Assembly (NCBI GenBank): GCA_022606425.2
Contig: JAHDVF020000578.1
Coordinates: forward strand, 682,001-746,000
DNA length: 64,000 nt
DNA from: Lepidostoma basale
Lineage: Eukaryota > Arthropoda > Insecta > Trichoptera > Lepidostomatidae
Direction: 5' to 3'
Of this stretch, positions 1,039 to 57,165 are shown piece by piece. The translations under genes were made by a program, and so were the position numbers. The notes below the pieces were generated by a model that was given only the letters and a program-made list of their open reading frames with translations, ran no database searches and was not told where the DNA came from. Each line of letters starts with the position of its first letter. The first letter of the stretch is position 1.

Positions 1039-1261
1039 AACATTTTATAACTGTTAACGAAAAAAAAAACACAATTTTATTTTATTTTACGACAGCTCTT
1101 TCATCAACCATTGTTGACATTATCAGGTGTTACAATTCATCAACATTTGATATATTATGTTAACACCTGATGATGTCAACATTGGTTGATGAAACAGCTG
1201 TCGTAAAAGAAAATACAATTGTGATATAAAACCAAAGTTTTTTCATTAACAGTTATAAAAT
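1039..1261. repeat. type A palindromic repeat (hammerhead-bearing)
   Basis: Two arms of about 105 bases are inverted copies of each other around a centre near 1150. Each runs from an AACAGTTATAAAAT-type outer end, through CACAATTGTATTTT, to the block CACCTGATGATGTCAAC...GGTTGA.GAAACAGCTGTCG. Other type A copies lie at 4.9, 26.8, 29.1, 29.2 and 51.1-51.6 kb. The right arm has an intact hammerhead-like core; the left arm (reverse strand) has CTGATAA and a mutated stem III. Confidence 0.85.
1160..1209 (+). ncRNA. hammerhead ribozyme-like motif, type A
   Basis: CTGATGA (1167-1173) is followed by a stem II hairpin (GTCAAC pairing with GTTGAT, one G-U), GAAA (1191-1194), and the self-complementary octamer ACAGCTGT (1194-1201) ending in the cleavage triplet GTC (1200-1202). 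These are the invariant boxes of a type I hammerhead in order. Stem I is weak (two pairs next to the core). Stem III is a palindrome without a loop, so only a dimer could form it. Activity is inferred, not shown. Confidence 0.6.
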
Positions 1262-1269
1262 ATAATCAA

Positions 1270-1727
1270 ACTTTTAGTTATAAAATAAATTTTTCATTTG
1301 TTCCAATGACAATTTGAATAAATTCTTCAATCAAATTTTCAAGTTTTTGCTGGTGTTGGATTGTTTTAAGTGCCTAATTAAAATTAAAACAGTGGAATAA
1401 AAAATTAAATAAACACAAATGTTCGGATCGTCCAGCTGACAACAAGTGCACCATTTTAAAGAACATTATGTGTTAAATTATTTTATGTGTTATTTTATTT
1501 TATATCATTGTATTTTGTATAATTTGTTTTTATGTAGACGTTGAATGATCGAAGTGTGCGCGGGAGATGCCTATTGGTGGCGATGAGGTTCGCAACCCAT
1601 CACACCGCGTCTCTCGCGTTGGCGAAAAGAGAAGGATGGAATGCAGCATCGATTAAAGTGTTGCAGTCCATTCTTTCTGTCTACCCTTTCGGGGAAACGG
1701 CGTGATGGTTAGTTAGTTATTTAGTTA
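1270..1727 (+). mobile_element. composite repeat: Penelope-like end joined to LINE-A 3' end, copy 1
   Basis: The left part (about 1270-1540) carries the AATTTTTCATTTGTTCCAATG segment, also found inside type A elements at about 5.0 and 51.2 kb. The right part (about 1545-1727) is a variant LINE-A 3' end: GATGCCTATTGGTGGCGATG, GTTCGCAACCCATCACACC, then the terminal TTTCGGGGAAACGGCGTGATGG and (GTTA)n. The same junction recurs at 9.4, 32.0 and 49.1 kb, so the composite was copied as a unit. Confidence 0.7.
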
Positions 1728-2389
1728 ACTTTTAGGAAATTTATGTTAAAATTAATATTAAACGCACGGTGAAACTTAAGCAGGAAGAGAAGTGCTAAGA
1801 GGAACATGGTAGTAGGCCTGGGTGAAATATAGGTGTAACAGGACAAGAAGCAGATGAAAAAACAATACCTCCTACGGGTCCTTTGAATAATCAATATTTC
1901 ACGCTGTAATTTGATCAGGCACTCGAAAAGCCCTCGAAAGGGAAAAACTTAAGGGCGGCGAAATAAATTACACCTATATTTCGATGTTCTCAACAATACG
2001 GGCGTAATTCCCGAGTTCCATCACTGTCGGGAAATGATTTCGTTCGCCTGCCAGTGACAAGTGAGAACAGTGCCGATAGAAAATTATCTGAAGCATTTTT
2101 TCCGAACCATTTCATTTCATTTATCCCGCCAGATAAAACGGACCGCGATCCAGCAGCCAGAGAGCGCTTTAGGGAGAAGAATGGAGGCAGAAATGAAGAA
2201 ATCCCTTCGGCTGAAAGACGAAATATTCGGATTCATGATGTAACACTTTGAATCCAACTTTATCGGTAAAAAAAACAAATTTCGAATACGTTTTTCTTTT
2301 ATCCATTTTAATCCTAGGGATTGATTTGCAACAAGGTCTATTAGCATCTTTACTGCTTCTTGGGATGCCACTTGGGCTTTTTAATTAAA
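1728..2389. other. apparently single-copy, moderately GC-rich stretch
   Basis: From about 1870 to 2230 base composition rises and no repeat seen elsewhere in the window matches. The short open frames have no recognisable motif. It may be unique host non-coding DNA. The stretch at 2270-2390 weakly resembles 29.42-29.54 kb. Confidence 0.35.
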
Positions 2390-2910
2390 TTATTTTTTTT
2401 AGGGTAACAAACAGCGAGTAAGTACATATATAAAAATACACAAAAAAGTTCTCAAATAAGGCCAATTAAATGTTACCACAAAACATAAATAAATTAACAC
2501 AGTTAACATCGTAGACTTATGAAACGAGATTTAACTAAACTAAAATCAAGATAAAACTAACTAAGGTAATGGTATAAAAATTAACAAAAATATAATAATA
2601 ATAATACAAGTTAAGGAATATAACATTAGCACTATACTCGTACACATCGAAAAGTTGCTTTTAACTATTTTTAACTATTTTTTTAAAATCATAAGCGTTT
2701 AGGTGAAAAACATCGATGGCATTAAAATATTTGTAAAAAGTGTCGCATATCCGGTACATTGCCGCACTCCGAGCGTAATTGGTGCGATAAGCAGGAAGGT
2801 ATTTGGCTCGCGGTGTGTCTTGTACGAAACATAGAGGTATTAATGGTCAATTTGCTAAGAAGTTCGGAGTTATCAATTTTGAAATATACGATTTTGTGAA
2901 GTAGCATTAT
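2390..2910 (-). pseudogene. LINE-G 3'-terminal relic, copy 1
   Basis: The reverse strand reads IPSCLSHQLRSECGNVPDM, then ...IDVFHLN near the stop, the tail of a non-LTR polyprotein (the tyrosine/arginine-rich C-terminus after the RT). It is followed by an AT-rich 3' flank containing GGCCAATTA and GGGTAACAAACAGC (reverse). The same C-terminus (IDVFHLNESD) and 3' flank recur at 30.29-30.67 kb, so this is a repeat family and not a host exon. Confidence 0.6.
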
Positions 2911-2997
2911 ATCGTTTAGAGTTCGTCTATGTTCGTCATGTTAAAAAAAAAAGTAAATACAACCACAGCCCAGCATCATTTTTAATGTAATAGACAA

Positions 2998-3110
2998 AAA
3001 TGGTTAAATGCCCTCCCAGAAGAACTCAGAAACCAGGCCTCATACAATAAATATAAACTTTCAATCAAAACGAATCACAAAAAGAATTGTGACTCAATGA
3101 CATAACTTAA
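2998..3110 (+). pseudogene. non-LTR C-terminal relic
   Basis: Forward frame WLNALPEELRNQASYNKYKL resembles the W.SLP.E.R....FK..L C-terminal block of CR1/Jockey-type LINE polyproteins. It is short and has no intact start. Confidence 0.5.
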
Positions 3111-3119
3111 ATTTAACTG

Positions 3120-3869
3120 ACATTCATGATACTCCTCTCCTTAACACAGTACATTTTTCTTTATAAGGAGAGTAAAAGAAACGCAAATAAAAGTTTTAAT
3201 ATATTTGTATTTTTTTAAATATAACAAGAAAAATAGTTTTGTACCATTTGTATATAATAAAAACATATTTAAAAAAAAAGTTTTTAAATCTAAGAATTTT
3301 AAGAATCATATCGTGTGACTGTATTGTACGAGTACTTTAGTGTAGGCAAATATTTCGTAAAAATTTAAACTAAAATCTTGGTGGATTAGTTATTGATTAT
3401 TCAAAAATACTCGAAAACTTCGCTAGATTAGCTTCCCTTGTCAATAATGATTAATGAATAATTTTTCAGATGGATTGCTCAAGCTAAGATAACTTCATTA
3501 CATCATCTTAATATCCTAAGCTCCCGGCTAAGTGCCATTAATTCGCAGCATCCTTGAGATAAAGTTTTTTTTATTTTGTTACGTAAACTGTTCCCGAAAT
3601 AGATATTAATTGCCGAATTTGTTATTCACTTTTAAAAGCGAAAGGAAAACATCCACTCGAACTTTGGATTTTTGACGGTCGAGGAATATTTAAAAAGAAA
3701 ATTTTCTTAGCGCTTCGTTAGATTGCTCTTAAACGATATAATTTAATAAATATTTTTTATTAATCTAACTTAATCAATTTATTGAAAGTTAAGGCGTTCA
3801 CACTGTGAACTTCCATTGTTAATTGAAGTTTAAAACACAACACTGTATATTTTCCACTTAAGTTAATTC
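3120..3869. other. AT-rich region, no gene seen
   Basis: Low-complexity AT-rich DNA with stops in all frames. Around 3780-3830 the sequence TTAAGGCGTTCACACTGTG matches a module found beside hammerhead-type repeats at 16.92, 42.95 and 48.97 kb (see findings), so part of it is repeat margin. Confidence 0.5.
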
Positions 3870-4548
3870 AATATCTTTATAAAATAATAATAAAAATATG
3901 TTCCGGTTTTTAAGAATAACTCATGTTTAAAAACCGGAAAATACCGAATAACCTGAAACGAAAAGTCTATGAAGCCTGCGTTCTGCCAGTTGGTACTTAC
4001 GGTCTTGAAACTGTTACACTGTCCAAACAAAGTGCCGAGAAACTACGAGTGACCCAAAAAGCCATAGAAAGAGTCATGTTAGGAATAAACCTAAGAGACA
4101 GAGTCAGAAACGATGCGGTGGGAGAAAAAACAAAGGTCACTAACATCATCCACCGGGTGGCGACTCTAAAATGGCGATGGGCAGGTCACGTAGCCAGAAG
4201 CTCTGATGAAAAGTGGACAAGAAGAGTGCTGACTTGGAGACCGTGGATGGTAAAGATAAGTGCAGGGTGACCGCAACTACGGTGGAAGAATGATCTAAAC
4301 AGACACGTCGGAATAACCTTTGTGCAGTCTGCACAGGACAGAGTGCAGCAAATGGAGGAGGCCTTTGTCCAAGAGTGGACGGGAATAGGCTAAGGAAGAA
4401 GAAGTAGAAGACTATATTTAATATATTATTTTACATGTTCTCAATAGATGCCTTAAACCTTAATTTTGTAATGTCTATTGATGAAATGAACTGATTTGAT
4501 TTGATTTGATTTGATTTGAATATCTTTATAAAATAATAATAAAAATAT
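3870..4548 (+). mobile_element. compound LINE insertion with a 30-bp direct repeat
   Basis: A 30-base sequence (3870-3899) is repeated without mismatch at 4519-4548, as expected of a long target-site duplication. The 619-bp insert has two parts: a LINE-C C-terminal coding piece with a GAAGAAGAAG tail (3910-4412), then a LINE-D-like 3' UTR ending in (TTGAT)n (4413-4518). The (TTGAT)n end abuts the right duplication, so LINE-D machinery probably made the insertion and carried LINE-C along. Confidence 0.8.
3918..4392 (+). pseudogene. LINE-C reverse transcriptase C-terminal domain
   Basis: The forward frame reads LKRKVYEACVLPVGTYGLET, then LRVTQKAIERVMLGI and LKWRWAGHVARSSDEKWTRR, breaks at a stop near 4268, and resumes with QDRVQQMEEAFVQEWTG. 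This is the usual tail of a LINE family in which conserved WRWAGHVAR follows the RT. It is 5'-truncated, with no RT palm. A second copy lies in reverse at 14.45-14.93 kb. Confidence 0.8.
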
Positions 4549-4625
4549 TAAAACACAATGTTTCGGAGGTGACCTCCATCTCCAGGTGTAAGGATAAAAC
4601 TAAAATATAAATTTAGAAAGACTCA
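4549..4625 (-). repeat. type G repeat fragment, hammerhead-like but broken
   Basis: On the reverse strand ACAC, CTGGAGA, a perfect stem II (GGAGG and CCTCC) and GAAA are present. The following CATTGTGTT has lost the GTC cleavage triplet seen in other type G copies (ATGTCGTG). It flanks the 30-bp duplication and is probably the host repeat of the compound insertion. Confidence 0.6.
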
Positions 4626-4699
4626 ATATATATATAGACATAATATAATCAAATGATTTTACTGAAATCTCTTGATGGAAGTTCATTTTAAATAATAAT

Positions 4700-4840
4700 T
4701 AAATAAAACAATGTTTTTTAACTACTTCCACTTCCAGTCTGTCGACCAGTCTGTCGATGCCAGCGAGCCTGGCGAAACCGGTCGCTGTCTAAATAAAGAC
4801 AAAAGTGGAAGTAGTTAAAAAACATCGTTTTATTTAATTA
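4700..4840. repeat. type D palindromic repeat
   Basis: TTTTTTAACTACTTCCACTT at the left is inverted as AAGTGGAAGTAGTTAAAAAA at the right. The centre holds a hammerhead-like motif. Copies lie at 17.05, 33.4 and 36.34 kb. Confidence 0.8.
4747..4790 (+). ncRNA. hammerhead-like motif, type D
   Basis: CTGTCGA (4751-4757; one change from CUGANGA), stem II GCCAG (4759-4763) with CTGGC (4769-4773), GAAA (4774-4777), palindrome ACCGGT (4777-4782) and GTC (4781-4783). Stem I can form from CAGT (4747-4750) and GCTG (4784-4787). The A-to-U change at the conserved A would be expected to harm catalysis, so this may be a decayed ribozyme. Confidence 0.5.
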
Positions 4841-4854
4841 GACATAATATTTCT

Positions 4855-5290
4855 AACTTTGTTTTATGTATCACAATTGAATTTTATTTTACGCGATAGC
4901 TGTTTCGTTAACCTATGTTGACATCATCAGGTGTTACAAATATATCAAATGTCAAATTTTCGTGATTTTTCGGGCCTTTGTTTGTTTTTGTTCCTATGTC
5001 AATTTGAATAATTTCTTTGATATAATTTTGAAGTTCTTGTTGGAGTTAAGTTAGGTACCTAAATATTTTAATTAAAAGAACGGTTAGTTACTATTTATAG
5101 GAGAAAATATTAAATGTGGAAAATGTAAAAATAAAATAATAATAATAATAAAAACAGTAATTAGAAGGAACAATTACACATAGTATAGAGTCAAAAACAT
5201 AATAAATTAAACACGATAAACAATAAAAAGAAGTAGATTACATTAATAAGAAAGGTGACAAAAGTTGAAGGTAGTATTATTATTTTTTAG
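4855..5290 (-). mobile_element. type A element with interior
   Basis: The left end (4860-4940) is a reverse-strand type A hammerhead-like block (CTGATGA, GTCAAC/GTTAAC stem, GAAA, CAGCTATC). The rest is AT-rich and matches 51.16-51.49 kb along its length, including AGTTAGGTACCTAA, AACAGTAATTAGAAGGAAC and AAGTTGAAGGTAGT. The right arm present at 51.5 kb is missing here. It is interpreted as the terminal repeat of a Penelope-like element. Confidence 0.65.
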
Positions 5291-5821
5291 CTAGATTGTA
5301 TAGGGGAAAAGTTTTTAATGTTCTTCATACTTATGGGGAATAAGCTGGAACTTGGTTGTTTATAACATACAATTTACATTTTTTTGCCTTTAATATTTCT
5401 AAATTATTTTAATTCTTTAATTTTTAGGGATTATTTGCTATATGCAAAAAAAATGTTTTTCGTTTCGAAATGATGGTCAAAATTCACACAATGATATTTC
5501 GACTAATCACTAAAAGTTTTGAGGACTATTAACAGTGAGGAAAAAACACATTTTCAAATCAACACAATAAAATATAAAGACCAATTTCTGAAAATAACGG
5601 GGACTAATAACAGTGGGGAATAATTGGTTTTTAGTAGTTTAATATATTATTTAATTATATGCAAAAACTTAAATTCATTTAAAAATAACAAAGGTCAACT
5701 CAGAAATACTGTCGTGTTTTAATATACGAGTATTTATTATTATTTTATGAAGATGTTGAATAAACTGTGGAAAATATGCAGTGTTGAGTTTCAAACTCTA
5801 ATTTCATTTGATCAACTTTAA
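5291..5821. other. AT-rich spacer, no gene seen
   Basis: Stops in all frames and no recognisable motif. It contains runs such as TATTATTATTTTATGAAG near 5740, with no clear match elsewhere in the window. Confidence 0.4.
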
Positions 5822-5835
5822 GTAAAAGCATTTTA

Positions 5836-6491: not shown

Positions 6492-6506
6492 GTAAAAAGC
6501 ATTTTA

Positions 6507-7650: not shown

Positions 7651-7674
7651 GGTATATAATTTTAATTTAAATAT

Positions 7675-8525: not shown

Positions 8526-8589
8526 TAAAATACGAATTTAACAAGATTCAATTGATCGTATTAAAGTATCAATGGGGTTTGAATATATA

Positions 8590-11004: not shown

Positions 11005-11481
11005 TCATGAAAACATATTATTTCGTCGGTTCAAAGGTTCATTATTGTGCCGGTTGAGTAATGCAACGCGGCAGTCAACGCGCGTTTGTTGATTTGCTTC
11101 ACTCAATTCGTGAGGTACCCACCTTTCAAGCTTTTTCACTTTCCCAATTTGCTTCAAGTGGATTAAAACAGTTTTATCACTAACACCGCAGCCTACAGCT
11201 AACTCGGACGTGGTTTGCGATGGATCCGCTTCCACAATAGCCTTCAATTCTTCATTATCAACTTTGGTCTCCAGCCGTCCACGGGGCTTGTTCTGCAGGT
11301 CGAAATTTCCAGAACGAAAACGTTGGAACCAAAAACGCACTGTGTTTTCTTTTGCGGCACCGTCGCCATACACATCATTAATCCTTCGAGCCGTTTCTGC
11401 AGCACTGGTGCCACGGTGGAACTCGTACTCGTAAATAACGCGATATTTCAAGTTTTCCATTTTGTAAACTGAGTGACGCAA
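11005..11481 (-). pseudogene. mariner transposase, N-terminal DNA-binding half
   Basis: A frame of 158 codons. The likely start is the internal Met at 11460 (MENLKYRVIYEYEFHRG). Residues about 8-60 form the first helix-turn-helix (GTSAAETARRINDVYG, VRFWFQRFRSGNFDL), and residues about 65-125 the second, with the conserved linker NKPRGR, SQTTSELA and GKVKKLERWVPHEL. A complete mariner transposase is about 345 residues; the catalytic D,D34D domain is missing here after LLNRHNNEP, so the product could bind DNA at most. Host derivation is not indicated. Confidence 0.85.
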
Positions 11482-11649
11482 AGAAAAAAAACAATTGAGG
11501 AAAAAACAAATGAATTATAATTTTCGAAACACAAATACTTGAGTAAATAGCTGTATAAATTTGAATTTGGAATTCCTAACCAAAGAGAAGATATTTGAGA
11601 TCAAAGTTGCCAGTACGGCAAAACGCCAATTTCATATGTAAGGACCTAA
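11005..11649 (-). mobile_element. mariner element, 5' half
   Basis: The reverse strand begins with a mariner-type terminal repeat, TTAGGTCCTTACATATGAAA (11649 back), preceded by TA (11650-11651), the mariner target dinucleotide. After a leader comes the transposase N-terminus. The element ends mid-gene at 11005, against MITE M; the 3' half and its terminal repeat are absent. Confidence 0.85.
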
Positions 11650-11679: not shown

Positions 11680-12475
11680 ATTTTTTTTTTTATATATATA
11701 CTTTGTATATACAACACTTGTATTAAAAAAATAAAATTACATAGACATGTTTCGGACAAACAGTCCTTCTTCAGTGATACATATTATAAAGATACATTTT
11801 TAATAATATTATAAAATTGTTTACATGATCTGAGGCCGCCAGGGCAAGAGTGGTCTAACCCCAGATTTAGACAATGGAGATAAATGCGATTGAAAATTTG
11901 ACGTTTTTTCCCCATTTTTTTTTTAAACTATATGGGTTAGGGTCTTCTTTAGTGATAAATCTTGTTTGTTTGGTGAATGTATTTAGAATAGTATTTTGAA
12001 ATATTGGGAAATATAAAGTTTAAGGATATTTTTTGATAGTTACTTATAATAGACCACATTTGACTGCATATATTTTGATTTTTTGTCAGAGTAAAGGAAG
12101 TATTTATGGCGATATCTATGTTTCCACTTGGAAATGGTGGTTAGATTATTTTTTCTTTTATAGTAGGTCACAAATAGGTGTGGGTTAGACCAGTAACTCA
12201 TTTTTTCAAAAAATGTTGGTTAGACCACTCTTGTCTTAGTGGCCTCATCTGACAGATATTATAAAGATTTATTTTGGAAGGCTTTTGTTATAACAAATAT
12301 TATGATTCAATTTAAAATTTAAAATTATAATTTTAAGTTCTTTTTGGGGTTCAGGTACTCGTAATTACTTACAACAAAGGAAATAAATCAAAGATTTGAC
12401 TTGATATAAAATTATTTGATTATTTATTTGAAATTTTTAATATAAGTGTTGTATATACAAAGTACATAAAAAAGA
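11680..12475. repeat. type F foldback element, about 800 bp
   Basis: Ends CTTTGTATATACAACACTTG (11700s) and its inverse CAAGTGTTGTATATACAAAG-like (12440s) mark terminal inverted repeats of about 40 bases. An inner pair, CCGCCAGGGCAAGAGTGGTC (11830s) and GACCACTCTTGTCTTAGTGG (12220s), is also inverted. The left arm carries a hammerhead-like core. No coding frame, so the element is non-autonomous. Confidence 0.7.
11744..11774 (-). ncRNA. hammerhead-like core, type F
   Basis: Reverse strand: CTGAAGA (11768-11774) fits CUGANGA exactly, then stem II GGAC-TGTTT-GTCC, GAAA, and palindrome ACATGT overlapping the GTC triplet (11744-11746). All invariant boxes are present. Stem I pairing next to the core is poor in this copy. 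Confidence 0.55.
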
Positions 12476-13566: not shown

Positions 13567-14011
13567 CTTTATGTTTTTTAGAGGTTTGGTTTTTAAACTG
13601 ACAACGTTGTTTTTACAGACTGTCAATTTGACAGTTGAAAGTTGATTTGTAGTTAATACGTTTTGGCATTTTACCATGAATAGACTGACGTCAGAACAGC
13701 GCTTGCGAATTATGCAAATTTATTTTGAAAATTATGGTTCGGTTCGCCAAACTTATCGTGCACTACGTCCATTTTACGGTGGACATAATCGTCTATCCGA
13801 GAAAGCCATTTGGAAGACCATGGATCGTTTTCGCACCACATACACTCTAGTAGATAATACGCATCCACAAAGATAACAATTGTCGAAAATTGGATTTCAC
13901 GATTGCGCTTCATTCGAGCTAGCATTTAAACAATAATGACATAAAATTATCGATTATTATAAAGGCAATATCATAGACATTAACATTATTTTCTCTAAAA
14001 AAAACACCTAT
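13567..14011 (+). mobile_element. DUF4817-type DNA transposon, internal deletion derivative, copy 1
   Basis: Inverted ends TGTTTTTTAGAGG (left) and CTCTAAAAAAAACACC (right) enclose the transposase N-terminus joined to its last codons (GTCGAAAATTGG, read as VENWISRLRFIRAS in another frame). The middle of the gene is deleted. The copy at 39.29-40.24 kb has the same fusion point. Confidence 0.75.
13676..13876 (+). pseudogene. DUF4817 N-terminal domain of a Tc1/mariner-like transposase
   Basis: A 66-residue frame: LTSEQRLRIMQIYFENYGSV, then RQTYRALRPFYG, NRLSEKAIWKTMDRFRTTYT. This fits the helix-turn-helix DUF4817 domain found at the start of several insect transposases. The frame stops at THPQR where the deletion junction begins. 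The catalytic domain is absent; it is probably not functional. Confidence 0.8.
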
Positions 14012-17039: not shown

Positions 17040-17170
17040 TATGTATATAAAGAACTCGGTTTACAATAGTCTCACCAGTCTGTCGATGCCAGCGAGCCTG
17101 GCGAAACCGGTCGCTGTCGAAATAATGACAAAAGTGGAAGTAGTTAAAAAACGTCGTTTTATTTAATTAA
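17040..17170 (+). repeat. type D repeat, single arm
   Basis: It contains the type D motif block and the arm AAAAGTGGAAGTAGTTAAAA. The left arm is missing. Confidence 0.75.
17076..17117 (+). ncRNA. hammerhead-like motif, type D
   Basis: CTGTCGA (17080-17086), stem II GCCAG/CTGGC, GAAA (17103-17106), ACCGGT palindrome and GTC (17110-17112), with CAGT/GCTG stem I. It matches the 4.75-kb copy across the whole motif, including the non-consensus U in CTGTCGA. Confidence 0.5.
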
Positions 17171-17640: not shown

Positions 17641-17805
17641 GCGAATGAAAACGTCAGTTTTCTAGAAGTTTTATTATATTTTATGGGAATGACATGTTTC
17701 GTCCTTCTTACGCATTATCGAATGTGACGAAACTTCAACTCGTTGCAGTTTATATACACTAGTGAATGAAGCAGAATATGGTTATTAACGAAAATTAAAT
17801 AATTA
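17641..17805 (-). repeat. type C repeat
   Basis: AACGTCAGTTTTCTAGAAGT, ATGGGAATGACATGTTTCG and TTCAACTCGTTGCAGTTTAT mark the commonest palindromic family here (15.6, 20.7, 22.5, 26.6, 29.9, 35.1, 37.7, 52.8, 56.9 kb). On the reverse strand it has a hairpin, GAAA, ACATGT and GTC, but the first box is degenerate (TCGATAA in this copy). Confidence 0.7.
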
Positions 17806-20645: not shown

Positions 20646-20890
20646 TTAACAATTAAAAACTTTGACGATTTGACAATTTTCGTTAATTACCATATTCTGC
20701 TCCATATACTAGTGTATATAAACTGCAACGAGTTGAAGTTTCGTCACATAAAAACATGTCATTCCCATAAAATATAATAAAAACTTCTAGAAAACTGACG
20801 TTTTCATTTGTATTAATTATTTAAAATGGAGTTTTCCAACATTGTTCAATTCACAATAAATAAGTTTTGACAATTATTTTTGCTTCCACA
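20646..20890 (+). repeat. type C repeat with deleted stem II
   Basis: GTCACATAAAAACATGTCAT replaces the usual hairpin, so the hammerhead-like segment is deleted here. Flanks AACTTCTAGAAAACTGACGT and AAAATGGAGTTTTCCAACAT are intact. Confidence 0.65.
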
Positions 20891-21039: not shown

Positions 21040-21278
21040 TTTTTATGTACACAACAGGTCGTTTGGACCCAATTACTGTATACAATTTTTTTTAGCTATT
21101 ATATTGATTCTCGTGACATGTGATAGGTAGCAAATCTATCGCCATTTTATTGTCACGTGAATTCTACACAAGACCAAAGACAGTGTGACAATCACACTGC
21201 CATCGCCGGGAATCGAACCCAGGACCTTCGGCATGGAAGTCAGAGCTCGTAACCACTCTGCCACGAAGGCCGTCAGGC
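21040..21278 (-). mobile_element. tRNA-headed SINE, TTGTATACA-tail subtype
   Basis: On the reverse strand: head with GTGGCAGAGTGG (A box) and GGTTCGATTCC (B box), hairpin CAGTGTGATTGTCACACTG, shared body, then the tail TTGTATACAGTAATTGGGTC and AACGACCTGTTG. This tail differs from the (AAT)n subtype at 12.6, 26.5 and 43.3 kb. Confidence 0.85.
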
Positions 21279-21674: not shown

Positions 21675-21862
21675 ATGATAATGAAAATTTCTTTATAGTA
21701 TATATTTGATTTAATTCTACTTGAGTTTATGGCTTCGACCGGTTTAGGCAGCTCGCTGCCATATTCTGGAATATAAAAAGCAGAAGATTGCAGCGAGCTG
21801 CCGAAAACGGTCGAAGCCATACACCTGAGTGGAATCAAACTAAAAATATACTATAAAAGTAA
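21675..21862. repeat. type E palindromic repeat
   Basis: The arms TATGGCTTCGACCGG...GGCAGCTCGCTGCC and GGCAGCTCGCTGC-type/CGGTCGAAGCCATA are inverted around a centre near 21772. The right arm has GCAGAAGA, stem II (imperfect), GAAA and CGGTC. It shares the ACCGG(T)-type stem III with type D but has a different stem II. Confidence 0.7.
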
Positions 21863-22440: not shown

Positions 22441-22474
22441 CAATGATGTAACATAATATGTAAGAAAAAACGAT

Positions 22475-22617
22475 AATTTTCAAGGAGTTTTATTATAATA
22501 TTTATGTACAACATGTTTCGCTCTTCTGAGGCATTATCAAATGTGTTTGATGGGTAAAACATGTCATACATAAATATTATAATAAAACTCCTTGAAAACT
22601 ATCGTTTTTCATACATA
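22475..22617. repeat. type C palindrome split by a Helitron
   Basis: CAAGGAGTTTTATTATAATA and its inverse TATTATAATAAAACTCCTTG flank a reverse hammerhead-like block (GAAACATGT; hairpin GCCTC/GAGC imperfect). The type C tail is cut at 22617 by the Helitron and resumes as TAATAATAAGG after 25328. Confidence 0.7.
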
Positions 22618-26622: not shown

Positions 26623-26775
26623 TCTGTTTTGTAAAAGTTTTATTAAATGGGAATGACATGTTACGCCTTGCATAATCACAAACATTTCTCAAGGCATTAT
26701 CATATACCATTTGATAATGCCTTAGCAAGGAGAAATATGTTAGTTCCATAAAACATAATAAAAACACTATGATAC
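26623..26775. repeat. type C palindrome
   Basis: Inverted arms around 26700. The right arm (forward) has TTGATAA, stem GCCTT/AAGGA, GAAA and TATGTT. No GTC triplet. Confidence 0.65.
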
Positions 26776-26784
26776 CTTACTATT

Positions 26785-26970
26785 TTAGACTATTTAATTA
26801 AATGACTATATTTTATGTATCACAATTGTATTTTATTTTACGCGACAGCTGTTTCGTCAACCTATTTTGACATCATCAGTAACATTATAATACCTGAAAC
26901 AGCTGTCGCGTAAAATAAAAAAAAAATGTGATGCAATAAACAAAGTTATTTAATTTAACAGTTTAAAACA
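26785..26970. repeat. type A palindrome with asymmetric right arm
   Basis: The left arm has a full type A block on the reverse strand. The right arm reads CCTGAAACAGCTGTCGCGTA: the stem II hairpin has been deleted exactly between CTG and GAAA. The outer ends CACAATTGTATTTT and AAAACAAAG-type are present. Confidence 0.8.
26838..26886 (-). ncRNA. hammerhead-like motif, type A
   Basis: Reverse strand CTGATGA (26873-26879), stem II GTCAA/TTGAC, GAAA (26852-26855), palindrome ACAGCTGT and GTC (26844-26846). All invariant boxes are intact. Stem I next to the core is weak. Confidence 0.6.
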
Positions 26971-27834: not shown

Positions 27835-27925
27835 ACCCCAGTAGGTACCAGAAGATGGCAGCAAGCTGCCGAAACCGGTCGACGTTAAACACATGTGGAA
27901 GCACACTAAATATATTATAATAAAG
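27835..27925 (+). ncRNA. hammerhead-like motif, type E
   Basis: CAGAAGA (27849-27855; one change from CUGANGA), stem II GGCAG-CAAG-CTGCC, GAAA (27871-27874), ACCGGT palindrome and GTC (27878-27880). Stem I is imperfect in this copy. Confidence 0.45.
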
Positions 27926-29049: not shown

Positions 29050-29170
29050 AAAATTTTTAAATATCACAATTGGCTGTTCCTGGCGATGTTTACATCGGTT
29101 AGCGAAACAGCTGTCGCGACAAAATATAATCAATTGTGATATGTATAACAAAGTTTTTTTATTCAAATAG
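29050..29170 (+). repeat. type A single arm, degraded
   Basis: CTGGCGA, decayed stem II, GAAACAGCTGTCGCGAC and AATTGTGATATGTATAACAA. The conserved A in the first box is G and stem II does not close. Confidence 0.65.
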
Positions 29171-29180: not shown

Positions 29181-29400
29181 AAAATTTAAAACGCTGTTAT
29201 AATATCACAATTTCTTTTTATTCACTGAGAGTGTCGGGACAGCTGTTTCGCCAACCGATGTTGGCATCATCAGGTGTTACAATAAATTGAATGTTTATTG
29301 TAACACCTGATGATGCCAACATCGGTTGGCGGAACAGCTGTCGCGACACTCTCAGTGAATAAAAAGAAATTGTGATATTATAACAGCGTTTTAAATTTTA
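29181..29400. repeat. near-perfect 106-bp-arm palindrome, type A
   Basis: The left arm 29181-29286 and right arm 29294-29400 are complementary with very few mismatches (two near the stem II/GTC region), around a 7-base loop. Each arm holds a type A hammerhead-like block. Relative to other type A copies, stem II has changed on both sides (GCCAAC/GTTGGC instead of GTCAAC/GTTGAC). Confidence 0.9.
29231..29280 (-). ncRNA. hammerhead-like motif, type A variant
   Basis: Reverse strand CTGATGA (29267-29273), stem II GCCAAC/GTTGGC, GAAA (29246-29249), ACAGCTGT (29239-29246) and GTC (29238-29240). The facing copy on the forward strand has GGAA in place of GAAA, so only this arm keeps all boxes. Confidence 0.6.
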
Positions 29401-33404: not shown

Positions 33405-33655
33405 TAATGAAATAAAACGATGTTTTTTTTAACTACTTCAACTTTTGTATTTATTTCGACAGCGAGCGGTTTCGCCAGGCTAGGCGGGACGGCTTCGACA
33501 TACTGGTGACACTGTTATAAACTGACTCCTTTAGATACATACAGATCAGGGGAGTAAAAATGATTCTATGCAAAGATAATAATAAATAAATAATTAAAAA
33601 TGGAAGTAGTTAAACAAATGTCGTTTTATTTTATTATTATTTAAAATAAACTTCT
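33405..33655. repeat. type D palindrome, degraded
   Basis: TTTTTTTTAACTACTTCAAC on the left and AATGGAAGTAGTTAAACAAA on the right. The reverse-strand motif has ATGTCGA, GAAA and CCGCTC with a disrupted stem II. Confidence 0.65.
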
Positions 33656-35079: not shown

Positions 35080-35290
35080 CATAAAAAATGAAAACGTCAG
35101 TTTTCTAGAAGTTTTATTATATTTTATGGGAATGACATGTTTCGCCCTTCTAAGGCATTATCAAATGTGACGAAACTTCAACTCTTTGCAGTTTATATAC
35201 ACTAGTAAATGGAGCAAAACATTTTTCATTCGTATTAATTATTCTTTATGGAGTGTAACATCATTGTTCAAGAAACAATAAAACAACTAA
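35080..35290 (-). repeat. type C repeat
   Basis: The reverse-strand block 35134-35164 has TTGATAA, stem GCCTT-AGA-AGGGC, GAAA, ACATGT and GTC. It is the best-preserved type C block, but two positions of the first box (C3 and G8) differ from the hammerhead consensus. Confidence 0.7.
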
Positions 35291-35354: not shown

Positions 35355-35402
35355 ATTTTCCCGATGATGAAGGTGTAAGCCTTCGAAACTTGTCGAGAAA
35401 AA
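35355..35402 (+). ncRNA. hammerhead-like motif, type K
   Basis: Stem I TTTTC (35356-35360) pairs with GAGAA (35395 on). CCGATGA (35361-35367; one change), stem II GAAGG/CCTTC, GAAA (35385-35388), ACTTGT (near-palindrome) and GTC (35392-35394). Apart from the U-to-C change in the first box, every helix closes. Confidence 0.5.
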
Positions 35403-36334: not shown

Positions 36335-36560
36335 TTATAATTAAATAAAACGATGTTTTTTAACTAATTCCACTTTTGTCTTTATTTCGACAGCGACCGA
36401 TTTCGCCAGGCTCGCCGGCATTGACAGACTGGACGAAACAGACTGGAAAACATGGCATCACCAGTCTCTCGACGCCAGCGAGCCTGGCTAAACCGGTCGC
36501 CGTCGAAATGTGGAAGTAGTTAAAAAAACATCATTTTATTTAATTATTATTATAAATGAA
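36335..36560. repeat. type D palindrome
   Basis: Left arm AAACGATGTTTTTTAACTAA and right arm AGTTAAAAAAACATCATTTT. The reverse motif has CTGTCAA with GAAA and CGGTC. The forward motif has CTCTCGA with TAAA in place of GAAA. Both are degenerate. Confidence 0.75.
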
Positions 36561-42164: not shown

Positions 42165-42203
42165 ACACGACATGTTTCCGAGGATACCTCCATCTCCAGG
42201 TGT
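42165..42203 (-). ncRNA. hammerhead-like motif, type G
   Basis: Reverse strand: stem I ACAC pairs with GTGT (42165-42168), CTGGAGA (42193-42199; one change), stem II GGAGG...CCTC, GAAA (42175-42178), palindrome ACATGT and GTC (42169-42171). It lies just downstream of the Penelope-like frame on the same strand. Confidence 0.5.
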
Positions 42204-42459
42204 AAAAAAAAACTAAACTAATAAAAACGCATTTAAAAATCGATACAATAATTCAAATTTAAAAATTAACCTGGGCTATTTGTTATAAGTAGGTACTTAG
42301 AATTATTTTTTAACATTAAGAACTAAAAATAATATTAAATAATAATAATTCTTTATGATAATATAAAAAAATATAAAAAAATGTTATTTAAAAAAAACAT
42401 ACATTTGAAAAGATATAATTTATATAGTATAGATATTAAAAATAGTTATTAATTAATGA

Positions 42460-42723
42460 TTAATTTGCATTTGATTGGAAATGGGAGCTTGGAAGATTAA
42501 ATGTAGACAAAATATTTAATGAGAAAGGAGTAAAAGGAGGAATCTGATTATTAATTATATTTTCACTCAATTTCACCGACTTGAGGATTTCAAAATCTTC
42601 AAGTTTGTTTAATTTATTGCTATTGTTAACTGTGTGTAGAAATTTTGTGTCATTTTTATCGAAACTGTGGTCAAATTCAATACAATGTTTAGCCATCTCA
42701 GAAAAAAATAATATGTTTAACAT
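42460..42723 (-). pseudogene. Penelope-like polyprotein C-terminus (candidate)
   Basis: An 87-codon frame: SEMAKHCIEFDHSFDKNDTK, FLHTVNNSNKLNKLEDFEIL, KSVKLSENIINNQI, PFSLNIL. The order S.MA.H....HSF.........LH......KLN.LE.FEI.K......I.N.QI....LNIL is what I would expect after the GIY-YIG endonuclease of Penelope-like elements. The catalytic GIY-YIG residues are upstream and absent. The match is from memory of the family pattern and not from a search; a less likely alternative is another GIY-YIG-bearing element. Confidence 0.55.
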
Positions 42724-42852: not shown

Positions 42853-42888
42853 ACATCTGAAGATGGTATCCTCCGAAAAATGTCGTGG
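42853..42888 (+). ncRNA. hammerhead-like core, type G, shortened stem II
   Basis: CTGAAGA (42857-42863) fits CUGANGA. Stem II is reduced to GG-TAT-CC, followed by GAAA (42875-42878), AATGTC and GTGG. Stem I has three pairs. Antisense to the Penelope-like frame. Confidence 0.4.
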
Positions 42889-43140: not shown

Positions 43141-43830
43141 TCGAGTGCAAAAAAGCGTTGTAAAATACAGTGTTACTCAAAACTTCATCAAATGTATATC
43201 CACAGCTCAAAATGATGGCGAATATGGAAGAAAAAATTAATATAGATAGAGTAATACATATTTTTAAGTATTTATATGACGACCTTCGTGGCCGAGTGGT
43301 AAGTGCATTGACTGCCACCCCGAAGGTTCCGGGTTAGATTCCCGGCGAGGGCAGTGTGATTGTCACACTGTCTTTGGTCTGGCGTAGAATTCACGTAACT
43401 ATAAAATGGCGATAGATTAGCTACCTATCACATTTCACGAGAATCACTGTGATAGCTTTAATAACCTTTACATCGATTTGGCTCATGCTGTCATGATGTA
43501 AAGAGCGATTCAACAAAATAATAATAATAATAATAAACAGGCGTTGTCAGAATTAAGTGGCAGAATGTGAAGAAAACTTGTTCAAATGTGAATCTACAGC
43601 TTAAAATGATGGCGAATATAGAAGAAAAAATTAAATTAGATAGAGTAATGCATCCTTTTAAATATATAATTCTACTGAAATAGGCGTTGTCATAATTTAG
43701 TGGCGGAATGTGAAGAAAACTTGTCCAAATGTGAATGAAGAGCTCAAAATCATGGCGAATATAGAAGAAAAAATTAATTTAGATGAAGTAATGAATCCTT
43801 ATATATAATTAAATATGTATAATTAAATTC
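43141..43830 (+). repeat. 143-bp tandem repeat, three units, broken by a SINE
   Basis: AAAATGATGGCGAATATGGA (43211), AAAATGATGGCGAATATAGA (43603) and AAAATCATGGCGAATATAGA (43746) head successive units with GAAAACTTGT(C/T)CAAATGTGAA at their ends. Removing the SINE restores roughly equal spacing. A further unit fragment (TAGAGTAATGCATCCTTTTA, GAATTTAGTGGAGGAATGTG) is at 44862-44938, beyond a LINE-A/LINE-B block. Confidence 0.8.
43278..43540 (+). mobile_element. tRNA-headed SINE, (AAT)n-tail subtype, in satellite
   Basis: A box GTGGCCGAGTGG, B box GGTTAGATTCC (one change), hairpin CAGTGTGATTGTCACACTG, body, and tail GAGCGATTCAACAAAATAAT plus (AAT)n. Almost identical to the 12.58-kb copy through the head. 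Confidence 0.9.
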
Positions 43831-48578: not shown

Positions 48579-48589
48579 TATATCATTAC

Positions 48590-49070: not shown

Positions 49071-49074
49071 ATAT

Positions 49075-50455: not shown

Positions 50456-50459
50456 TTCA

Positions 50460-51040: not shown

Positions 51041-51592
51041 TATAACCTGTGATACATTATAACCTGTGAAATTAAAAAAACCTGTTTTATGTATCACAAT
51101 TGTATTTTTATTTTTTGCGAAAGCTGTTTCGTCAACCTATGTTGACATCATCAGTATCTTCTTTATGTGTATTTGCTCCTTATGTCAATTTGAATAATTT
51201 GTTTGGTATTATTATATATAATTTTGAATTTCTTGCAGGAGTTGAGTTAGGTACCTAATTATTTTAATTAAAAGAACGGCTACTTACTATTTATGAGAGA
51301 AAATATTAAAGGTAAAAAATATAATAAAAATAATGATAATTAATATTATTATAATAAAAAATAAAACAGTAATTAGAAGGAACGATGAGACATAATGAAT
51401 TAAAGACGATAAACAATATAAGGAAGCAGATTACATTAATAATAAGGGTGACGAAAGTTGAAGGTAGTGTTATTATTTTTTTCACGATGATGATGTCAAC
51501 ATAGGTTGACGAAACAGCTGTCGCGAAAAATAAAAATACAATTGTGATACATAAAACAAAGATTTTAATATTTAACAGTTTATAAAGAGGTT
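51041..51592. mobile_element. type A element with both arms and interior
   Basis: The left arm 51050-51160 (reverse-strand motif: CTGATGA, GTCAAC/GTTGAC, GAAA, CAGCTTTC) and right arm 51485-51590 (forward: ATGATGA, GTCAAC/GTTGAC, GAAA, ACAGCTGT, GTC) enclose about 320 bases matching 4.95-5.28 kb. Each motif has one lesion. It is the most complete type A element here, and lacks any coding frame. Confidence 0.75.
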
Positions 51593-52125: not shown

Positions 52126-52139
52126 ACTATGATACCTGC

Positions 52140-52707: not shown

Positions 52708-52724
52708 GAAGAAGAAGAAGAAGA

Positions 52725-52885
52725 TCAAGTAATTGGGTTCAAACGACCTGTTGTATACAAAAAAGGCTTATTAGAAAGCGAAACAAGTCATTCCCATACC
52801 ATAACTTTTAGAAAACAGACGTTTTCACTCCCATTAATTATTTAAAATAGATTTTTCACCATTGTTCAAGGATCATTAAATATAT
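52725..52885 (+). repeat. SINE tail fragment and type C fragment
   Basis: GTAATTGGGTTCAAACGACC and TGTTGTATACAAAAAAGG are the TTGTATACA-type SINE end without body. 52775-52880 (AAACAGACGTTTTCACTCCC, TTCACCATTGTTCAAGGATC) is a type C 3' end. Confidence 0.65.
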
Positions 52886-53389
52886 TTGTAAATGCTTAGT
52901 AATATTGCGTTTTTTTATATCATACATTTAACTTTAAATTATTTTTTTGTCAAATACGTATAATTAATGTAATAATAATGTAATTAACAGCTTTACATAT
53001 CAAATATTATATATTATTATATATTATGAACTTATACTCGGTTGATTCATATCCTTGTATGTATGATGTAATTAACTTATACAGCTCTCGAGTACATATC
53101 CGTGAAAACTTTTCGCTTAAAACGTAATCCATAATTCGAGAATGTCCGTAACTTTCCGAGTGCAAGGGCGGCACGTGTGCCTAACCCGCTCGGGTCAACT
53201 TTTATTACAACCCTTAACATCTTACCCCACACTCTTGTGCCGCGGTTAGAGTCCACTTGTCCGAAGCCTTCCACCCTTTGATGTACATAAATGTTAAGTA
53301 TTAATATGATTTCTTTGAAATAACCAGCAATCCTCTTCATGATCACTATAATATTCCACAATTTATCAGTCTATTAATTATGTAATTAA
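52886..53389. other. spacer, no gene seen
   Basis: 53150-53290 is GC-richer (CACGTGTGCCTAACCCGCTC, CTTGTGCCGCGGTTAGAGTC) and unrepeated. The reverse open frame has no motif. Confidence 0.35.
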
Positions 53390-53592
53390 AATAAACAAAA
53401 GTGGTTTAAAAATGGAAGAACTAAAAATTCTATAAATTATATGAAGTATTCACACGTGTTTCGTCTTATGAGGACATCTTCGAGTGGACCCTCGAAGATG
53501 TCCTCATAAGACGAAACACGTGTCGTGAATATTTCATATCATTTATAGAATTTTTAGTTCTTCTATTTTTAAACAACTTTTGTTTATTTTAA
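53390..53592. repeat. type H palindrome, about 85-bp arms
   Basis: AGAACTAAAAATTCTATAAA...CACGTGTTTCGTCTTATGAG pairs with CTCATAAGACGAAACACGTG...TTTATAGAATTTTTAGTTCT around a short centre near 53490. The right arm (forward) has TCGAAGA, hairpin GTC...GAC, GAAA, the palindrome ACACGTGT and GTC, then GTGAAT. The first box deviates at two positions. Confidence 0.85.
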
Positions 53593-53954
53593 TAACATCA
53601 TTATGGAATTCTATGCACTTAATCATACATCGATTAATAGTCTATTAATTGTTGTAATTTTGTAAAACTCCACATATACTCGTAATTATTATGAACAAAA
53701 TCGCCTTTGAACAATGTTCGTAACTTTGTAAACAACACTAAATTTATTAAAAAATTAATTTAATTTACTAACGTGTTTCGGATACAGAAGCCCTTCATTT
53801 GTGTTTTGTTAGTTTTTGTATATACAAAATTAATATTTTAACAAATATATCATAAATGTGGTCAGTTTTGACAGATATCAAAATGATTTTTTTTTTCTTT
53901 TGAAAATATCATTTTGATATCTGTAAACTTTATCGCCATTTTTATAACTAATTA
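53593..53954. repeat. degraded hammerhead-type end and spacer
   Basis: 53755-53830 (ACGTGTTTCGGATACAGAAG, reverse GAAACACGT with ATGAAGG) is a decayed motif. 53885-53935 contains an inverted pair, CAAAATGATTTT.../...ATATCATTTTGATATC. Confidence 0.4.
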
Positions 53955-54325
53955 ACTAAAATCCATCACGCCGTTTCCCCGAAGGGGTAGGCAGAGAGGA
54001 TGGATCGCAACACTGTTCTATCCTGATATAAATCTCGCGGCTCTTCAACATTCACACATGCACGCTCGTCGATTGCTCCTACTTCGAACATGGCCGCATT
54101 TTAGTATTTGATTAATATGGTCATACCATGTCTTCCTTGGGTTTCCTCGACTTATTTTTCCAGTCACACTACTTGTATATATATTTTTAACCATTCTTCC
54201 CCCATCGTTCCATATGTCCAAACCATCTCAGTGACCCTTTCTTAATTCTATTTATCACGCATTCATCCGCCTTACATTCCTTTCTTACTTCATCATCAGA
54301 TGTTTCGAACATTGTTTTTCTACAT
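53955..54325 (-). pseudogene. divergent LINE-A-related relic
   Basis: The reverse 3' terminus GTTTCCCCGAAGGGGTAGGC-type and decayed GHMERM..., MTRC... regions align with LINE-A but with many changes. Closer to the 35.8-kb subfamily in wording (GACCATATTAATC). Confidence 0.6.
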
Positions 54326-54614
54326 ATTCAATAATCTAGTATCAAATAATCTCGACAAAAAACTTAATAACATATGTTATAATTAATTTTGGCACTTGAA
54401 ACAGGTCAATTATCTTTTTTTTATTTTTCCGATGAAATTTCACTTTTTGTTTGAACGTCAGACAATGATGAGTTTTTAGAACGAATATCGAAAAATTCAA
54501 CTAATTTTAAAAAAGACGAATATTAGCGTTGACGAATATTGGAGTTTTCCTGTATACGATTTAATGTGGAGTTGTATATAGTTTATTAAAAGTTGCGAAT
54601 AGATAATTCTTTCA
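54326..54614. other. AT-rich spacer, no gene seen
   Basis: No motif noticed. Confidence 0.45.
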
Positions 54615-55590
54615 AGAATCAATTATATCTCAATAGAGACGAAGATGCAAATTGAAAATAGAATATGGTTGATCGAGGTGCTTACAGGACTTATGACCTA
54701 TCATTGGTTGGGTTAAGCGCACGCTTTATGTAATACAACATTCCCCATTCTACCATTTTTTCTAATGACCACCATGTCTGACAAATTTTTAGAAGTTGTA
54801 TATATGTTAATCTGTAAGACCACATGGTAGTTTTTGTAATCTACACACTAACGCCATCTATGAAGATTGTATTTTTTTAAGCATCAAGCAGAAGATCTTT
54901 TTAACGCAATGTGAAAGGCTACCGCCATTTAGCGCATTGCTAGAATCCGCCTGGAGATGTCACTCCAATCTATATGCTATAATTTTTTTACCAGAGTTTG
55001 TTTTTACAACAATTTGAATGTATACAAATACTTGAATCCTTATGTATGGAAGCGAAGCATGGAACTGGCAAAAGAAGGATGAAAGTAGAATAAATGCAGT
55101 AGAAATGTGATCTCTTAGACGAATGTGTGAATACTCTGTGTATGATAGAGTGTAGAATGAAAACATAAGAAGTGAATGCGGTGCGAATGATGGTGTCATG
55201 AACAAAATAATGAAAGGATCATTAAGATGGTTTGTACATTTGGAAAGAATGAATGAATAAAGAATGGTAAAAAAATTATATGTTAATGATGTGAATGGAA
55301 CCAGAAATAGAGGAAGACCGAGGAAAACGTGGCATGATCAAATAAATCAAATATTGAATGTCGGCCATGTGAGGAGTCAGAGAAATCGACGCGCGTGCAT
55401 GACACGATGTATGAATGTTGAGGAAGCGAGAGAAATATGTCAGGAAAGAAAAGCGTGGCAGTCAATTCTTTCTGCCTACCCCTTCGGGGAGACGGCGTGA
55501 TGGTTAGTTAGTTAGTTAGTTAGTTTACAAATACTTGTAGACGAACAACTGGATTTCACCCATTGCGGGCTATCAATTCATGAATTGTAT
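54615..55590 (-). mobile_element. MITE M copy split by LINE-A
   Basis: The reverse M sequence runs from TCTCAATAGAGACGAAGATG (54633) through GGTTGGGTTAAGCGCACGCT and CGCCTGGAGATGTCACTCCA to GTATACAAATACTTG (55034), then continues after the LINE as ACAAATACTTGTAGACGAAC and TTCACCCATTGCGGGC (55527-55570). Removing the LINE rejoins the terminal repeat. Confidence 0.85.
55035..55525 (+). pseudogene. LINE-A copy with perfect 12-bp target duplication
   Basis: TACAAATACTTG flanks it at 55023-55034 and 55526-55537. It starts at TATGTATGGAAGCGAAGCAT (LMYGSEAWNWQ), passes frame-broken RRMCEYSVYDR and LYVNDVNGTRNRGRPRKTWH, and ends CGGGGAGACGGCGTGATGG with (GTTA)5. Because the duplication directly follows the tail, it defines the LINE-A 3' terminus. 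Confidence 0.9.
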
Positions 55591-55934
55591 ACATTCAAAA
55601 TGTTGTAAAGATAATTCTTTATTTAAATATTCCGTTTCACTGGATGGGATGCAAGCCGACTATGCAAGCGTGGCGCTTATGAGTCCTTATGTCTTAACGT
55701 GTTTCTACCGACGAAACTTTCATAATACGAGTACATGTAATACCCGGGTGCGTACGTACGTACTCGTATACGTATGCGGCGAATGCCGGCAGTAAAATCT
55801 TTCTTTCGCACAACTGGCATCATAAACACGACTCCAATATAAGATTAGACATTGAAAAAAGCTTCATTTTTAATGTGGTCATAATATATTTACTGCTTGA
55901 GAAATCAGAATTTCATATTAAACTCAAAATAATA
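55591..55934. other. spacer, no gene seen
   Basis: 55650-55800 is GC-richer with CGTACGTACGTACTCGTATA. The frame across it has no motif. Confidence 0.4.
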
Positions 55935-56400
55935 ACTAACCATCACGCCGTCTCCCCAAAGGGGTAGGCAGAAAGAATGGACTGCCACACTTTTCTTTCC
56001 TGACATATTTCTCTCGCTTCCTCAACATTCATACATCGTGTCATGCACGCGCGTCGAGATCTCTGACTCCTCACATGGCCGACATTCAATATTTGATTTA
56101 TTTTATCGTGCCACGTTTTTCTCGGTCTTCCTCTGTTTCTGGTTCCGTTTACATCGTTAACATATAATTTTTTTACCATTATTTCTTCATTCATTCTTTC
56201 CATATGTCCAAACCATCTTAATGATCCTTTAATTATTTTGTTCATGACACCATCATTCGCACCGCATTCACTTCTTATATTTTCATTCGATACTCTATCA
56301 TACACAGAATATCCACACATTCGTCTAAGAGATCTCATTTCTACTGCATTTATTCCACTTTCATCCTTCATTTGCCAGTTCCATGCTTAGCTTCCATACA
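55935..56400 (-). pseudogene. LINE-A copy with a long open C-terminus
   Basis: The 142-codon open frame (56371-55943) reads MRSLRRMCGYSVYDRVSNEN, KGSLRWFGHMERMNEEIMVK, TWHDKINQILNVGHVRSQRS and CMTRCMNVEEAREICQERKV to SAYPFGETA, the reference form of the LINE-A C-terminus in this window. It is 5'-truncated near AWNWQMKDE. Confidence 0.85.
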
Positions 56401-56915
56401 TAATATAGTCTAAAAAGACAAAAAAACACGCTAATCTAAGTACTAATAAAGCAAATTAAACTTAAATATTGGTTTATTTCGTTATTGTATGTAGTCGTAT
56501 TGTAATCATTTTCCCATATTTCAAAAACTTTTATGGGAGGGGGGCGTTGAACGTTTATTTTTCTTGTAACGCGGGCCCAGAAAAGATTGGAAACCTATGA
56601 TTTAGAGGAATGTTTTTCACCAGCGTCTTTTTTTTAGATCATCAAGGATGTCGCTTACAGGCTTAAAAAAGGACCTCTACCTACTGGACCGGAAGTCGCT
56701 ATCGACCCCTAAAAAAAATTCGCCACCGGATTCTCTGTCTTCTAACCGGAAGTCGCTGATGAGCTAAAAAAAGAGGTCGCCATCGACTTCCTTCTAAATA
56801 AGTACGTGTCACGATTTTCATTTTTATTATGAAAATCGTCACCAGCGCTTTTTTATTTATTTATAAATTTTACCCACTTGCGAAAACGGTTCGCCATCCC
56901 TGGTCTAGTAAATGG
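56401..56915. repeat. unidentified block with short direct and inverted repeats
   Basis: CACCAGCGTCTTTTTTT (56620s) and CACCAGCGCTTTTTTATTT (56840s) bracket a segment with ACCGGAAGTCGCT twice (56690, 56740) and the palindrome ACGATTTTCAT...ATGAAAATCGT (56811-56840). 56560-56610 (GGAAACCTATGATTTAG) resembles a hAT-type end. No coding frame. Confidence 0.4.
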
Positions 56916-57165
56916 AGCAGAATATGGTAATTAACGAAAATCTTTCTCGAAAAATATTCTGCTCCATTTACTAGTGTATATAAACGAGCTGAAATTTGAT
57001 AATACGAGCTGAAATTTGAAAACTTCACATTTGATAATTCCTTAGAAGGGCGAAACATGTAATTCCCATAAAATATAAAAAAACTTCAACATTTTCATTC
57101 GTATTCATTATTTAATATGGAATTTTACATCATTGTTCAAGAAACAATAAACAACAATTCCTTGT
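56916..57165 (+). repeat. type C palindrome
   Basis: AATGGAGCAGAATATGGTAA and ATATTCTGCTCCATTTACTA are inverted. The forward block 57024-57070 has TTGATAA, CCTT-AGA-AGGG, GAAA and ACATGT, but TAA replaces GTC. Confidence 0.7.

Follow-up and report, generated by a model that had tools for sequence, protein, structure and literature searches.

The window, a stretch of 64,000 nucleotides at 682001-746000 of contig C1194 in the 769-Mb assembly of Lepidostoma basale, held 30 sites with the layout of minimal type I hammerhead ribozymes, together with a fragment and a weak remnant of Penelope-like element (PLE) endonuclease genes. The scored scan combined core, stem II, GAAA, a 6- or 8-base palindrome and UH, with a threshold of 26. 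At or above this score, the window contained 20 sites, compared with a mean of 0.53 and a maximum of two in 30 Markov-2 simulations. There were 15 sites at 28 or more (simulated mean 0.13) and 10 at 30 or more (0.03), and the reversed window sequence reached a top score of 22. Of the 20, 11114 on the minus strand lay in a mariner reading frame and 30668 on the plus strand was doubtful. An earlier, differently built scan gave 16 window sites and one site in the reversed control, and its 20 simulations averaged 2.4. A second sample of 200 kb, taken in even steps along contig C2 and scored with U3-A8 as one change, held 30 sites of at least 26, three of which were mariner copies, compared with one to three in five simulations. 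The hammerhead-like motif is real and present beyond the window. By rough extrapolation from one contig, the genome-wide total may be near 100,000 sites. Window sites 33501, 63394, 42857, 53483, 42199 and 4930, and in that scoring also 22540, fell below 26 and were kept on family likeness alone.

Family letters A to O are the naming of this analysis, with A and A2 as subtypes of one family. All seven stem II words named in the original prediction were present, close variants included: GUCAAC in nine sites, GCCAG and GCCUU in five each, GGCAG and GGAGG in three each, GAAGG in one good and one doubtful site and GGAC in one. The ACACGUGU palindrome contributed two arms. The predicted dimer-type layout was found in more families than the eight named, and 13 stem II types were compared.

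Family A was characterised by stem II GCCAAC/GTTGGC, stem III ACAGCTGT and GTC, and its nine sites came from the scored scan. The palindrome 29181-29399 held one site in its left arm (29238-29273, minus strand) and one in its right arm, where GGAA replaced GAAA (29307-29342, plus). Palindrome 1070-1223 held a left-arm site with CTGATAA (1091-1126, minus) and a right-arm site (1167-1202, plus), and inverted repeat 51083-51558 a left-arm site (51119-51154, minus) and a right-arm site with ATGATGA (51487-51522, plus). Another site lay inside inverted repeat 26783-26968 (26844-26879, minus). At 29080-29115 (plus) the core was changed to CTGGCGA, and 4895-4930 (minus) scored 24.5. Family B, also from the scored scan, showed CTGTCGA, stem II GCCAG/CTGGC and stem III ACCGGT. 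It was represented at 4751-4783 (plus; stem I CAGU/GCUG), at 17080-17112 (plus), in the left (36395-36427, minus) and right (36466-36498, plus) arms of palindrome 36384-36509, and by an altered copy at 33464-33501 (minus), whose score of 21.5 is within the chance range. Family C (scored scan; CAGAAGA, GGCAG/CTGCC, ACCGGT) comprised 27849-27880 (plus) and two altered copies, 21737-21768 (minus) inside inverted repeat 21692-21857 and 63363-63394 (minus), the latter again at a chance-range score of 21.5.

Family D showed a UUGAUAA core, stem II GCCUU/AGGGC, stem III ACAUGU and GUC. Its sites were 35134-35164 (minus), 22510-22540 (minus) in the left arm of palindrome 22466-22609, 57031-57061 (plus) and the diverged copies 26711-26741 (plus) and 17691-17721 (minus), the last with TATA at -35. 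The scored scan further gave one member of family E at 35361-35394 (plus; CCGATGA, GAAGG/CCTTC, ACTTGT, stem I UUUUC/GAGAA) and one of family H at 11744-11774 (minus; CTGAAGA, GGAC/GTCC, ACATGT, GTC). Family K, with TCGAAGA and ACACGTGT, occupied the left (53451-53483, minus) and right (53492-53524, plus) arms of palindrome 53375-53603. Family G (GGAGG) was present at 42169-42199 (minus; core CTGGAGA, stem I ACAC/GUGU), in a shortened form at 42857-42884 (plus) and at 4556-4585 (minus), where the damage was on the cleavage-site side. Locus L016 held two copies of another type, with CTGTAGA, stem II GGAAG and stem III ACTAGT. The CUGANGA-like box expected of all families was exact in the GUCAAC and GGAC families, in part of GGAGG and in a doubtful site, whereas the others carried CTGTCGA, CAGAAGA, TTGATAA, CCGATGA or TCGAAGA. 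Nor was stem III always palindromic, as had been stated; the exceptions were ACTTGT at 35361, AAATGT at 42857 and ACAGCTTT at 51154.

Leave-one-part-out tests were run on the window and the 200 kb. Picking sites by core (CTGANGA or T3/A8 forms), GAAA and palindromic stem III returned 26, with none in the reversed sequence. A stem II of at least 4 bp closed in 17 of these, compared with 8% of shuffled inserts, and did not close in nine. Picking by core, stem II and GAA also returned 26 sites (control two), with a palindromic stem III in 17 and in neither control site. Without the core, 36 sites were picked versus three in the control; the core was exact in 12 and within one change in 23. A permutation result for stem II, 63/65, was set aside as circular because the sites had been picked by pairing, and the leave-out test counts instead.

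Stem I was never a selection criterion and was examined in one hand-picked copy of each of the 13 stem II types, with G-U counted. Pairing was found in 31 of 52 cells, compared with 21.5 when the 3' strands were permuted among families (p about 0.0015), and in 28 of 48 with A counted once (p 0.002). Support was weaker when less favourable copies, whose stem I falls to 0 and 2 bp, respectively, stood in for A2 and M (27 of 52 versus 20.0, p 0.02). Stem I strands matched their own family better than other families. Stem I had 4 of 4 bp in B, E and G and 3 of 4 in A2, M and N. The core was exact or had one change in A, B, C, E, G, H, M, N and O, carried the compensatory U3-A8 exchange in D and L and had two changes in K. 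GAAA, A15.1-U16.1 and the cleavage-site H17 kept register with the core, as did stem II, the palindromic stem III and GUC throughout the 13 stem II types. As the stems compensate between families, the comparison argues for selection on the RNA fold. An AUG overlapped the motif (CUGANG-AUG) in A, B, C, D, E, G, K and M.

A genome-wide count was made for family D. Its 31-base motif, with up to three mismatches, occurred at 13,593 forward and 13,744 reverse places, 27,337 in total, the places listed one by one being perfect matches, and the reversed pattern occurred at none. In its core, UUGAUAA, the active-core base pair C3-G8 is replaced by U3-A8, and stem I is 2 bp long. The same core was present in a second stem II type, GGTTA (loci L042 and L037). 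U3 together with A8 is described in several natural hammerheads in the available text of PMC3088659. The exchange is not new; the notable point is the number of copies.

Five of 33 D copies (L017, L018, L028 and, on the minus strand, 17721 and 35164) carried TATATAAA at -35 and TCACAT ending at -1. A TATA-like word stood elsewhere in four others and was absent from 24, as copies beginning at the RNA start are expected to lose the promoter. The D RNA is predicted to start with the A at -4, 31 bases on from TATATAAA. The promoter region of B showed TATATAAAG at -36 in 17080 and TATCTAAA at -36 in 33501. In the D copy 20761-20808 (plus), the promoter end TCACAT ran straight into AAAACATGTC, as though stem II had been passed over.

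Copy starts were read in 43 D copies spanning +45 to +70, from the window and the 200 kb, with the predicted D cleavage site at +31. Fourteen started at -7 to 0, six extended into the promoter, eight started at 1 to 15, 11 at 16 to 24, one at 29 to 34 and three later. The 200 kb contributed 13 of 29 starts at -7 to 0 and one into the promoter. Across all the sequence obtained, with L017 as query, -4 was the commonest start (24 of 135 matches, a set enriched for intact motifs). Nine of the 43 starts fell at 18 to 20, on the 3' strand of stem II; these could be reverse-transcriptase stops at the hairpin or reflect a loop-variant subfamily cutting the alignments. The 17 B starts were at -40 (two), -8, -6 (two), -5, -3, 7, 10 (two), 23 (two), 30, 31 (two), 40 and 47, of which three lay within 3 nt of the B cleavage site at +33, too few to interpret. 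Since one of 43 D copies started near +31 and 14 at -7 to 0, cleavage does not fix the 5' end of most D copies. Small as it is, this count speaks against cutting as what sets the inserted 5' end and for a fold located where the RNA begins.

The inverted-repeat list for the window covered 25 of 52 pairs. Within it, at least 11 of the 30 sites lay in repeat arms and at least four between close arms. The palindromic character given to the repeats in the original prediction was too strong for the whole set, as the other sites lay outside the listed repeats. Neighbouring D copies in the window and the 200 kb were arranged head-to-head in eight cases, tail-to-tail in one and directly in one; the 200 kb by itself gave 7, 1 and 1. 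Among 29 distinct D loci fetched by motif, from which L014 was excluded as the same pair as L013, an inverted partner was located at most 150 nt upstream in 14. With a limit of 250 nt, two of the 29 had an inverted partner placed tail-to-tail, and two a direct one. The centres of two of the 14 head-to-head pairs overlapped within the motif, and the other 12 had spacers of 4 to 101 nt. The left arm retained ATGT, the complement of ACAT at -4, in nine of the 12 spaced pairs.

A C-terminal fragment of a Penelope-like endonuclease was located at 42441-42711 (minus). The family G motif at 42169-42199 followed 291 nt 3' of it on the same strand, and the shortened G motif at 42857 stood in opposite orientation at its other end. 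A 60-aa query from this fragment (42523-42702, minus) matched all 150 scored candidates out of 4,931 first-look candidates. Six endonuclease copies, picked for low-numbered contigs, were fetched with their flanks, and all six had a family G motif 282 to 492 nt 3' of the endonuclease stretch on the same strand; that of L052 carried an insert on its cleavage-site side. In a longer copy, locus L057, the endonuclease piece that was scanned matched the GIY-YIG domain with 26.2 bits (cut-off 22.6), and a G-type motif was present downstream at 3127. The 99-aa and 182-aa endonuclease pieces had no match in a large protein set. These arrangements support family G as terminal repeats of PLEs, known here from the endonuclease end, in agreement with the original prediction. 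For the other families, the proposed PLE origin leans on a weak endonuclease remnant near one A copy or on anatomy; B, C, D, E, H and K would be placed with PLEs by the anatomy they share.

Taken together, the repeats are probably 5'-end retrocopies of several PLE families and of elements borrowing PLE machinery, with a minimal hammerhead at the 5' end and palindromes formed head-to-head. Each RNA would begin at a promoter within the repeat, consisting of TATA and then an initiator, and its predicted start, readable in D and B, lies 4 to 6 nt ahead of the hammerhead core. The minimal type I hammerhead would thus make up the first 35 to 40 nt of the transcript. Because stem III is self-complementary, a complete three-stem fold would require two RNA copies. 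A palindrome would represent two copies joined by their 5' ends. Both strands of one target break may prime reverse transcription, each complementary DNA reaching the RNA 5' end, and such two-strand priming on RNAs starting at -4 would yield the palindromes observed. It is conceivable, though on balance unlikely, that the dominant families retain the fold as a structure of start site, start codon and dimer at the 5' end, and not to cut the template, two uncut RNAs being passed to two-strand reverse transcription with the palindromic stem III pairing the templates. With about a dozen stem II types and a family of 27,337 places, 5' ends, compensation per stem and palindrome junctions become countable.

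Minimal PLE hammerheads are a known kind, and head-to-head repeats, a promoter and start codon within the repeat and the U3-A8 core have already been published. The available portion of PMC7761336, citing Cervera and de la Pena (2014) and Lunse (2017), counts minimal type I hammerheads in the thousands, both across metazoan genomes and within the pseudo-long terminal repeats (pLTRs) of PLEs, possibly acting as dimers and with a role given as unknown. They share with the present sites a short or missing helix III, dispersed and pLTR copies and possible dimers. Unlike the hammerheads described in that portion, those found here comprised 13 stem II types in one genome and a 27,337-place family with UUGAUAA and a 2-bp stem I. 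In Poseidon PAc of Anolis (PMC11167929), the AUG likewise stands where stem II begins, following C3 and G8, and the protein cuts and extends both target strands. In contrast to Poseidon PAc, many copies here were short and non-coding, and certain window copies of A (51487), D and E had a stop codon no more than four codons after the AUG. For Penelope of Adineta vaga, the accessible sections of PMC3846280 describe inverted pLTRs that are mostly head-to-head with palindromic junctions, as well as TATA, a TCACT initiator and the first codons inside the pLTR, all as here. Its authors infer self-priming on an antisense template, whereas two-strand priming is proposed here. The compensatory change of the U3-A8 hammerheads covered by the PMC3088659 text is the same as in L. 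basale, where it marks the 27,337-place family and the GGTTA type. This set of families was met in no report in a literature search that left most subscription papers outside and in which the family sequences were not queried.

Several observations weigh against the retrocopy interpretation. The direct PLE link was limited to G and was weak for A, where the remnant at 5334-5468 (minus; 49% identity, E 0.002) lies 404 nt before 4930. The D starts formed a second cluster at 16 to 24 (11 of 43), in which position 19, with five starts, equalled -4, and in the window one of 14 starts fell at -7 to 0 and five extended into the promoter. Stem I had just 1 to 2 of 4 bp in A (29273), C, D, H, K, L and O. 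The core departed from the standard in B (A6U), C (U4A), E (U4C), M (A6U) and K, and a natural A6C variant cleaved slowly according to the available part of PMC3088659. AUG was absent from H, L, N and O. For several families, G among them, ViennaRNA preferred a dimer other than that of the hammerhead. The Rfam hammerhead covariance models, suggested as a check in the original prediction, returned no match over cut-off in the window, the best being RF00163 at 53448-53530 with 24.8 bits versus a cut-off of 34, and no Rfam hammerhead was among the matches listed for 11 fetched loci at E up to 1. The genome-wide RF00008 search gave no match, and its controls gave no signal either. Whether run at cut-off or at E up to 10, Rfam returned mainly miRNA-like matches on palindromes, tRNAs and the one weak RF00163, and was uninformative.

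The hammerheads may instead cut element RNA as dimers, with cleavage as the selected step in present mobilisation, which we regard as possible but somewhat doubtful. The fixed place that stem II, the palindromic stem III and GUC hold relative to the core in all 13 types fits this explanation, as do the 4-bp stem I of B, E and G, the suggestion in the available text of PMC7761336 that tandem PLE hammerheads self-cleave via dimers and, for what so few copies can tell, the three B starts within 3 nt of +33. In family D, the single start near the cleavage site stands against 14 at -7 to 0 and six into the promoter, and stem I is 2 bp long. Furthermore, cleavage-dead hammerheads of an anole PLE inserted equally in vitro, and that ribozyme needs protein (PMC11167929). 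The use of cleavage in the spread of the repeats was unsupported. The original proposal that self-cleavage is what selection acts on found no support as the driver of the present copies, given the D starts, the 2-bp stem I and the UUGAUAA core. Movement as circular RNA, as in metazoan non-LTR retrozymes, appears very unlikely. Retrozymes are 150-450 bp tandem repeats with type I hammerheads and circular RNA in the accessible part of PMC7229834, and the repeats here are likewise small and non-coding, with type I motifs and a short stem III. However, neighbouring D copies were head-to-head in eight cases and direct in one, PLE sequence adjoins family G, and both tandem arrays of the window (143- and 252-bp units, two copies each) lacked a site of at least 26.

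That the repeats are DNA palindromes only, either transposons of the miniature inverted-repeat type with hammerhead-like arms or palindromic protein-binding sites, is highly improbable. At least 15 of the 30 window sites lay in or between close inverted-repeat arms in the list of 25 of 52 pairs, and CAGCTG and CACGTG are E-box-like words. Yet half of the window sites were outside the listed inverted repeats, and single copies occurred, for example L017 and L028, both fetched by motif. Head-to-head pairs outnumbered tail-to-tail pairs, many copies were 5'-truncated, stem II and stem I compensated, and a PLE endonuclease adjoined family G. A chance or low-complexity artefact in AT-rich DNA has next to no probability. 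Sites scoring 20 or more do arise by chance (mean 15, compared with 40 seen in the window), but this explanation was already refuted by the simulations, the reversed controls, the 200-kb sample, the leave-out tests and the D count.

Other elements were also noted. A fragment of a mariner with an HTH_48 domain was located at 11005-11514 (minus), and mariner repeats mimic hammerheads in the scan. The cluster CTCACGA...CAAACGCGCGTT (11114 on the minus strand, L010, L037, L041 and L046) was rejected as a family because 11114 lies inside the mariner HTH_48 reading frame. A two-frame non-LTR retrotransposon occupied 57548-61430 (plus), with a frame matching PRE_C2HC followed by a 928-aa endonuclease and reverse transcriptase frame without a stop. 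A large inverted repeat spanned 55040-56403, its 471-nt arms being 94% complementary with 422 nt between them. Two tRNA-like sequences at 43282-43353 (plus) and 21198-21270 (minus) were barely above the Rfam cut-off and are perhaps tRNA-derived short interspersed elements; locus L036 held four stronger ones.

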